A DNA stretch of 41,957 bases from the NCBI RefSeq assembly GCF_900113045.1, contig NZ_FONY01000043.1:1-41957 (forward strand), read 5' to 3'. Positions within the stretch are counted from its first letter, which is position 1. Each line of letters begins with the position of its first letter. The notes beneath the pieces are model-generated. The model was not told the origin of the DNA. It saw nothing but the letters and a program-made list of their open reading frames with translations, and did no database searches. The DNA is from Thermoflexibacter ruber (GTDB lineage Bacteria; Bacteroidota; Bacteroidia; Cytophagales; Thermoflexibacteraceae). The position numbers and the translations under genes were made by a program. Below, in pieces: positions 14,152-37,204 of this stretch.

Positions 14152-14277
14152 AGCTTCATCAACTTTACATTCTCTTTTAGGCAAGTATTTATACTTGTAT
14201 TAAATTTTTTTATTTTCCAATAATTTATACTCAAAATAAAATGATTTTGAAATCCCTCTTGCTAAGGAATGGACTTG

Positions 14278-14494
14278 GTTTCTCTGACACTTTTGGTGGA
14301 GTTAGCCCATGAACAGTACTACATGTAACTTTAAGCCCGTAGGGCTATCATCTTGGTAGAAAAGAGTGAAATATGCCACCGCTACGCGGTTTTATTCATT
14401 ATTTTCTACAAAAATAGCACACCTACGGTGTTAGTCAAGGGCAAATTAAAGTCCAATGCTTACATAAGTTTTACACAGAAAGTGCCAGAGAAAC
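14278..14494 (+). mobile_element. MITE-like non-coding element, copy 1
   Basis: About 217 bp with no credible ORF. Terminal inverted repeats: GTTTCTCTGACACTTTTGGTG at the left and the complement of CACAGAAAGTGCCAGAGAAAC at the right. The interior has three small hairpins with the same plan, a 5-bp stem and a 3-nt loop: AGCCC-gta-GGGCT (14334-14346), ACCGC-tac-GCGGT (14378-14390) and ACACC-tac-GGTGT (14419-14431). The second is nested inside GTAGAAAA (14356-14363) / TTTTCTAC (14402-14409). A second copy lies at 36952-37196. The flanks (TGGACTTG / GGAACTTT) are only loosely similar, so a target duplication is eroded or absent. It sits between pdxJ and the CHAT gene, in a divergent promoter region. 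Confidence 0.75.
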
Positions 14495-14706
14495 GGAACT
14501 TTGGAGTAAAGAAAATTTCAAAAACACTTTTGATTGAGTATAACTTCCTTAAAGAGCATTTTGCCAGACAAAGGTAAGAAAATAAAATGAGGTGAGGAAA
14601 GTAAGTGATAATGATAATTTTATTCCCTGTATTCCTCATTTCTCAATATTTTTTTTAAAATTTGAAGTGAAGAAAGTCAAAATCAAACCATTAAATACTC
14701 AATTTT
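14495..14706. other. upstream region of the CHAT gene, no gene seen
   Basis: About 210 nt, AT-rich. Short ORFs in it have no family features. It must carry the promoter of the large plus-strand gene. A partial -7 match (TAATTTTA) is visible near 14614-14621, but no -33 element is spaced correctly, so I do not call a promoter. Confidence 0.3.
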
Positions 14707-36148: not shown

Positions 36149-36910
36149 TTATTTTTCTAAAAGGCTGTTATAGAAAGCTACTGCTCCTGCCAACGTTTCC
36201 TTTTTATCAAAATCCAATTTATTTTTTGCTAAGTAGGCTTCAAACTCTTTTTCGTGTTGGTTTAATATCTGTAACAAACCCTTCTTTGATTTTTTGAGTT
36301 TGACTACTTCATTTTCTGGCGTAACGATAAAAAACTCTGTATTGGAAACAAACTTGTCATAATCTCGTCCAGAACTTTGTGAATTGCCTACATCTGCGGG
36401 AATAATGGATTTGGTTTGAAAAACAAGAGCAGTGTACTTGCCTTCGTGAAGCACCTCACAAAACCTTTCTCCTTTGGAACTACCTACTGCATACCTTTTA
36501 AAAACGTGTTTTGTTCCTGTTTCAGGGTGTTGCATGATAAAAGAAGCCACCGTAACATCATCTACCAAGATAGAATCCCCTTTTTCCTTTCTCAATACCA
36601 TTAGCTCCTGCTCCTTGAAAATATCTAATTTGGCAAAGACACCTTCAAACTTGTAACCGTCTTTCAAATGAATTTCTGTTATATGCCATTCATCAAAAAA
36701 ATAAGGCGTGCCACGATAATTTTTAACCCTATTATCAAAACCACGCATCATCATCGTAGAAGCCCGATTGAGATTGCCATCTACTAATAGCTTTTTAAAA
36801 TCATTTTCCAAACTTACCGCTTGATTAGGATTGGAAGGTTGATTTTGAGCAAATAGAGTCATAGAACTCAACAGCAGAAAACAAATAAAAATTAAGTAAT
36901 TGATTTTCAT
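36149..36910 (-). CDS. secreted hypothetical protein
   Basis: 253 residues. Type I signal peptide (1-22, SSMTLFAQ). The rest has no motif I recognise: beta-rich, with a GTPYFFDEWHITEIHLKDG segment around 67-85 and a Lys-rich C-terminus (KSKKGLLQILNQHEKEF). Its stop (36149-36151) directly adjoins the stop of the convergent phosphatase, with no base between. The start region faces a MITE copy, which lies about 40 nt upstream and so may affect its promoter. Confidence 0.75.
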   Translation of the reverse strand: MKINYLIFICFLLLSSMTLFAQNQPSNPNQAVSLENDFKKLLVDGNLNRASTMMMRGFDNRVKNYRGTPYFFDEWHITEIHLKDGYKFEGVFAKLDIFKEQELMVLRKEKGDSILVDDVTVASFIMQHPETGTKHVFKRYAVGSSKGERFCEVLHEGKYTALVFQTKSIIPADVGNSQSSGRDYDKFVSNTEFFIVTPENEVVKLKKSKKGLLQILNQHEKEFEAYLAKNKLDFDKKETLAGAVAFYNSLLEK

Positions 36911-36943: not shown

Positions 36944-36951
36944 CTAATTTT
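36944..36951. repeat. left copy of the MITE target duplication
   Basis: CTAATTTT, identical to 37197-37204 on the other side of the element. An 8-bp direct repeat hugging terminal inverted repeats is the mark of transposition. Confidence 0.7.
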
Positions 36952-37196
36952 GGTTCTCTGGTACTTTTTGTGGAGTTAGCAAATGAATAATACTACTTAT
37001 AAATTAAGCCCGTAGGGCTGTCATCTTTGTAGAAAAGAATAAGACCCGCATACAGCAACGCCGTAGGCGTGAAATATGCCACCGCCACGCAGTTTTATTC
37101 ATTATTTTCTACAAAAATAGCACGCCTTCGGTGTTAGTCAAGGGCAGACTAAAGTCCACCACTTACATAGTTTTACACAGAAAGAGGCATAGAACT
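36952..37196 (+). mobile_element. MITE-like non-coding element, copy 2, with 8-bp target duplication
   Basis: About 245 bp. Left end GGTTCTCTGGTACTTTTTGTG; the right end reads AGTTCTATGCCTCTTTCTGTG on the other strand. Hairpins: AGCCC-gta-GGGCT (37007-37019), ACGCC-gta-GGCGT (37058-37070), ACCGC-cac-GCAGT with one mismatch (37081-37093), ACGCC-ttc-GGTGT with one G.U (37122-37134), and the nested GTAGAAAA (37029-37036) / TTTTCTAC (37105-37112). Relative to copy 1 it has about 30 extra bases that carry the ACGCC hairpin. No ORF for a transposase, so it would depend on one encoded elsewhere. It lies in the divergent region between a secreted protein gene and a LysM-like gene. Confidence 0.85.
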
Positions 37197-37204
37197 CTAA
37201 TTTT
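37197..37204. repeat. right copy of the MITE target duplication
   Basis: CTAATTTT, exact partner of 36944-36951. Confidence 0.7.

Follow-up and report, generated by a model that had tools for sequence, protein, structure and literature searches.

A hairpin-rich repeat of Thermoflexibacter ruber is very probably an ISL3-derived MITE that was orphaned in this host and re-amplified as the passenger of an IS630-type MITE, a history which we read from sequence comparisons. The window, as we call the whole 41,957-nucleotide stretch of DNA that was analysed, contains one free-standing copy of the repeat and one copy nested in a larger composite (Table 1).

Results

The window element and its copies in the host genome

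By direct reading, the free-standing copy in the window is a 245-bp element flanked on each side by CTAATTTT. It occupies the space separating a divergent gene pair and is 34 bp away from the start of the gene at 36149-36910. Its TIRs are imperfect: the left one starts GGTTCTCTGGTAC and the reverse complement of the right one starts AGTTCTATGCCTC, and the family consensus for the inner TIR, judged by eye, is GGTTCTYTGACRCTTTYTGTG. No ORF of 80 or more amino acids was found within the element. The original prediction, made from the letters of the window, had described a noncoding element of this length with imperfect TIRs and an identical octamer on both sides, all of which is borne out by the reading. 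Its further proposal of a MITE with a genuine 8-bp duplication is supported by multicopy matches and by the target-site duplication (TSD) tests described below.

Table 1. Features of the free-standing and composite copies in the window
Feature	Position	Strand	Basis or remark
Composite: outer IS630-type MITE (TATACTCAAAATAA...TTGATTGAGTATA) carrying the inner element	14226..14542	+	
Inner ISL3-type MITE in the window composite, 77% to 36952-37196, internally deleted	14275..14492	+	BLAST limits
Target-site duplication, left copy CTAATTTT	36944..36951	.	Direct reading; TSD test
ISL3-type MITE, free-standing, 245 bp	36952..37196	+	Reading, genome search, alignment
Left TIR GGTTCTCTGGTACTTTTTGTGGA, 19/23 to ISL3 insertion-sequence end (family consensus 21/23)	36952..36974	+	
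Palindromic core; similar to palindromic repeats in related Cytophagales genomes	37005..37136	.	
Hairpin 1, AGCCC-GTA-GGGCT	37007..37019	.	Terminator-like, both strands
Hairpin 2, ACGCC-GTA-GGCGT	37058..37070	.	
Hairpin 3, ACGCC-TTC-GGTGT	37122..37134	.	
Right TIR; family consensus reverse complement GGTTCTCTGACACTTTCTGTG, 18/21 to ISL3 end	37176..37196	-	
Target-site duplication, right copy CTAATTTT	37197..37204	.	Direct reading; TSD test

The window element was used to search the host genome (5.5 Mb in 123 contigs), yielding 41 matches at E≤1e-3. Once fragments and contig-end duplicates were merged and a half copy (L255) was added, these gave about 38 loci in two classes, 9 free-standing (solo) and 29 composite, or approximately three composites for each solo copy; the host-genome searches scored 40 of 95, 109, 90 and 98 first-look candidates, and more decayed copies may exist. 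The two copies counted in the original prediction were therefore too few, and the absence of any others, which it had entertained, is contradicted by the 41 matches. Among 37 copies examined, 36 do not overlap an ORF of at least 100 amino acids by more than 50 bp, the exception being L023.

Eight of the nine solo copies have both ends, L044 being truncated. The 8-bp flanks are identical at all eight positions in three of these eight (the window copy, L004 and L011), partial agreement was observed for L040 (7/8), L018 (7/8, only with a one-base shift) and L003 (6/8), and L008 (2/8) and L019 (1/8) are without a duplication. The comparison with empty sites that had been raised along with the original prediction succeeded in one part and failed in the other: an orthologous empty site for the window insertion was not found, while empty sites for the nested insertion were (see below). 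Of 13 family genomes, 11, counting that of the host, have a match to the gene neighbouring the window element. G002, a genome of the same genus, has this gene, yet its upstream region is not syntenic, and among the 10 loci searched the upstream gene was matched only at the host locus itself.

Composite copies and the outer IS630-type element

In the 29 composites the inner element is located at one point of an outer repeat, with GGGACTTT duplicated. The layout is TATACTCAAAATAAAATG...GGGACTTT, inner element, GGGACTTTGGAGTAAAG...TTGATTGAGTATA, and the ends are decayed in some copies. The second copy in the window belongs to this class. The count of 29 was obtained from 32 rows by merging L006 with L007 and L009 with L010 (each pair has the same flank), as well as the contig-edge pair L014 and L041, whose overlap is identical, and it includes L255, which was found by its right half only. 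Four of the 29 composites lack one side (L027, L039, L045 and L255).

The outer element is approximately 100 bp long (TATACTCAA...TTGAGTATA) and is also present without the inner element at four places, L199, L207, L211 and L240. L199, L207 and L240 carry a single GGGACTTT at the insertion point and are the empty sites of the nested insertion; L211 differs at this point. Thus, the filled and empty outer copies together demonstrate that the one element was inserted into the other. Intact outer ends read TATAC.../...GTATA, which is consistent with a TA duplication, although this is inseparable from the TIR. IS630-family elements target TA and duplicate it (PMC2170065). A scan of non-host loci for the outer ends gave only matches with 4-5 mismatches, and a better match, L048, proved to be a host locus.

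Fragments of an IS630-family transposase (PF13358) are found at ten host contig ends, each closing with TTGAGTATA, and the same IS630 end is present at three further host contigs. The right end of this IS630 element matches the outer right end at 22/24 positions and the outer left end at 19/24. No complete IS630 element was seen in the host assembly. A fragment resembling the left end, TATACTAAAAAG...GGTTTTGAAATTT (23/32), precedes an HTH_23/HTH_29 reading frame and may come from an element other than the PF13358 one. As a separate observation, 13 host contig ends lie inside the IS630-family element (L270-L279, L306, L331 and L357), so the draft assembly is fragmented by that insertion sequence.

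We considered whether the composite could have been amplified by its inner ISL3 ends, which are largely intact in many copies, or by homologous recombination, with which the similar flank of L007 and L026 (88% over 249 bp, with its end about 50-65 bp away from the element) would agree. This is unlikely. Two-sided composites stop at TATACTC/GAGTATA or near variants, the most decayed ends being the left ones of L021, L022 and L037 and the right one of L025, and the outer end is common to the resident IS630 element. Beyond the outer ends, where up to 400 bp were compared, the composite flanks have no mutual match at 1e-6 other than in the merged contig-end pairs, in L007/L026, and in L037/L255, which carry an unrelated 112-bp repeat. 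Additionally, 12 of 28 aligned composites and 0 of 9 solos have a left inner TIR damaged by the same 10-bp deletion, half of which falls on the final five bases of this TIR and half on the five that follow; this is a tally of rows and not of independent events, and the carriers of the deletion lie at different sites. Composites also resemble one another more closely than solos do, with mean pairwise identities of 0.901 and 0.845, respectively (28 composite rows, L014, L027, L039, L043 and L045 among them, and 9 solo rows; the pairing analysis below used the same rows). The greater likeness of the composites and their shared deletion at different sites fit movement by the outer IS630-type ends after the inner element had lost its mobility.

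The palindromic core

The central palindrome (36-nt arms at 37005-37040 and 37101-37136, 75% complementary) encloses three hairpins with 5-bp stems and 3-nt loops, as had been predicted of small hairpins inside a larger palindrome. The DNA fold of the element is more stable than that of shuffled sequences (z = -2.69, with 2 of 200 shuffles as stable), and the terminator-like stem of hairpin 1 was detected on both strands, against an expectation of 0.1 sites.

In the host, part of the palindromic core is also matched at a place apart from the family copies (G000:C54:76574-76726). When other genomes were searched with the whole element, positions 57-193 alone were matched, in four related genomes of 38 others (G003, G005, G009 and G019), and the MITE family was not found in the two same-genus genomes. 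The stretches read from these four related genomes contain palindromes of CCGTAGG-type hairpins with no visible ISL3 ends. A duplication flanking the palindromic core was not identified. Taken from these sequence matches, it appears that the MITE captured a palindromic repeat.

The stable fold, the terminator-like stem and the palindromic repeats of the same type in four related genomes would also suit a self-standing hairpin repeat, REP/BIME-like or an RNA element, that is kept for its structure and has acquired its flanking repeats incidentally; one double change in hairpin 1 among the solos did preserve a pair. This explanation was already disfavoured and we judge it very improbable, as the TIR boundaries coincide with 8-bp duplications and Rfam at the gathering threshold gave no match at the element, its sole match being a tRNA elsewhere in the window. 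Compensatory change was not apparent either: for hairpins 1-3 and the palindrome, in solo and in composite copies, paired cells are within about 2 of the independent expectation, and a structure kept by base-pair conservation (REP/BIME or structured RNA) was rejected on this ground. There is no sign that the string of hairpins is maintained, in a pairing test whose power is limited because few positions vary.

ISL3-family origin of the inner ends

Of 389 other genomes of the order, three (G069, G132 and G124) contain a 28-base TIR pattern when up to 3 mismatches are allowed, and the reversed control pattern gave zero among the matches listed. The ISL3 transposase domain, PF01610, has 0 matches in the host assembly. 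Its search in ten genomes gave matches in G002, G005, G132 and G124, while G069 has none despite nine TIR places. G002 and G132 each hold the 3' part of a gene for an ISL3 transposase, which runs into GGTTGTCTGACAATTTTTGTGGA, an end of the same TIR group. In addition, a Cytophagales MAG (G390, contig JAUJNL010000045.1) contains a 1237-bp element with perfect 23-bp ends, GGTTCTTTGACAATTTTTGTGGA, and with Zn_ribbon_ISL3, HTH_Tnp_ISL3 and DDE_Tnp_ISL3 domains in separate open pieces of its reading frame; this copy has in-frame stops and no duplication. With the end of the G390 element, the consensus end of the MITE agrees at 21/23 positions and the end of the window copy at 19/23; in 200,000 shuffles of the end, 21/23 was attained 0 times. 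The statement in the original prediction that no named family fits does not stand, since the ends belong to an insertion sequence of the ISL3 family and ISL3-partnered MITEs have already been published.

Duplications of 8 bp are also made by families other than ISL3. IS1595, for one, is tabulated with DR 8 in PMC3852290. The host is without an ISL3 transposase match, but derivation of the solos from a non-ISL3 transposase family with ends alike by convergence is the least probable explanation of all, given an ISL3 transposase flanked by ends whose 21/23 identity no shuffle attained, and given that G002 and G132 hold ISL3 right ends as well.

A broader 23-base TIR pattern matched at least 120 named Bacteroidetes contig stretches. 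For a test of duplications, the nearest partner was taken for each of the 120 named loci listed, and repeats were dropped along with pairs that had fewer than 8 flanking bases, leaving 67 distinct TIR pairs among the matches listed, 63 of which are 74-243 bp in length. Among these listed matches, exact 8-bp duplications flank 25 of the 67 pairs, versus 1 of 670 shifted-position controls, and the remaining 42 pairs have no exact 8-bp duplication. Exact flank identities of lengths 4 to 12 numbered 4, 3, 2, 3, 25, 0, 0, 1 and 0, again among the matches listed. A tally of 55 TIR pairs includes duplicate loci and does not enter these figures. The exact 22-base inner TIR pattern matched no stretch in genome_contigs, a collection possibly without near relatives of the host.

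Other arrangements of ISL3-type ends were observed in the course of these searches. In L182 (2181-3606) and L188 (2937-4381), ISL3-type TIR pairs 1.43-1.45 kb apart enclose ORFs; two ISL3 transposase queries matched nothing there, and the two pairs were rejected as full insertion sequences. They may be cassettes carried as passengers, or separate MITEs paired by chance. L099 (3391-3441) and L133 (7845-7895) each have two opposite ISL3-type TIRs 5 bp apart, like back-to-back MITEs. G002 also carries a second, different ISL3-family insertion sequence of 1137 bp with perfect 22-bp TIRs, GGTTCTTTATGATTTTACTTGA (L062, 794-1930).

Discussion

Arranged in order, the sequences point to the following history. 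The GGTTCT.../...AGAACC ends would be the cutting sites of an ISL3 transposase working in trans, which would join them across a stagger of 8 bp and so produce the flanking duplication CTAATTTT seen at the window copy; mobilisation of this kind is suggested by the ends, the duplications and the family. One ISL3-type MITE copy entered an IS630-type MITE, duplicating GGGACTTT, as the filled and empty copies show, and the composite would then have spread to about 29 places by way of the outer TATACTC/GAGTATA ends. For this spread the composite probably used the resident multi-copy IS630-family transposase, a role predicted from the end that is common to the outer element and the resident IS630 element. 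We infer the order of events, inner insertion and then spread by the outer ends, from the same comparisons. As the assembly yielded no ISL3 partner, the inner element would now spread, if at all, as a passenger. In our view, a partner transposase in the same genome is typical of MITEs and does not define them.

Several published elements resemble one layer or another of this arrangement. Among them is a 187-nt MITE of Microcystis aeruginosa with an ISL3 partner and 8-nt duplications (PMC11448079), which shares with the present element a short length, imperfect TIRs (starting GGCTCT in Microcystis), the 8-nt duplication, a stem-loop and the ISL3 partner. It differs in its TIR, GGCTCTTCG, in its length and in that its ISL3 partner resides in its own genome; it is reported to have two putative ORFs, and the available text describes no second MITE as its carrier. 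Likewise assigned to an ISL3 insertion sequence is a MITE of Methanosarcina acetivorans, listed with ISMac21 (179 bp, 6 copies, IR 22, DR 7; PMC3852290), which differs in being archaeal and in its DR of 7. That paper also mentions the separation of elements nested as 'Russian dolls' and suggests that MITE-like orphans may have lost their partners.

For the outer element, RUP of Streptococcus pneumoniae with IS630-Spn1 serves as a model (107 bp, IS630-type ends, TA target; PMC2229807), although RUP is not described as carrying another MITE in the accessible sections. TIMEs, which are Tn3-derived elements of Pseudomonas, are likewise miniature elements from which larger mosaic mobile units are assembled, but the passages at hand describe them with Tn3 ends and 5-6 bp duplications, usually in single copy (PMC4133298). 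Narrow literature searches, which covered few subscription journals, found no ISL3-partnered MITEs in Bacteroidetes or Cytophagales, and a search with similar coverage of subscription journals found no reports of nested MITEs.

ISL3-partnered MITEs as such are thus already published, and what is unusual here is the nested history, with amplification as the passenger of a MITE from another family, a modest twist. Beyond the nesting and its use for annotation, the element displays ordinary MITE biology. A seemingly unclassifiable hairpin element nonetheless becomes an ordered sequence of events, and since solo, empty and filled states occur in one genome, carrier switching between transposase families is directly testable. 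The same ends mark miniature elements in several Cytophagales assemblies, where they are useful for the annotation of intergenic regions. We consider it reasonably probable, with less assurance than for the passenger history itself, that the element is a three-layer nest, a palindromic repeat in an ISL3-type MITE in an IS630-type MITE, and that by switching carrier it escaped the loss of its first transposase. Most copies would then be owed to the carrier, and stacking across families may be a way in which orphaned MITEs are rescued.
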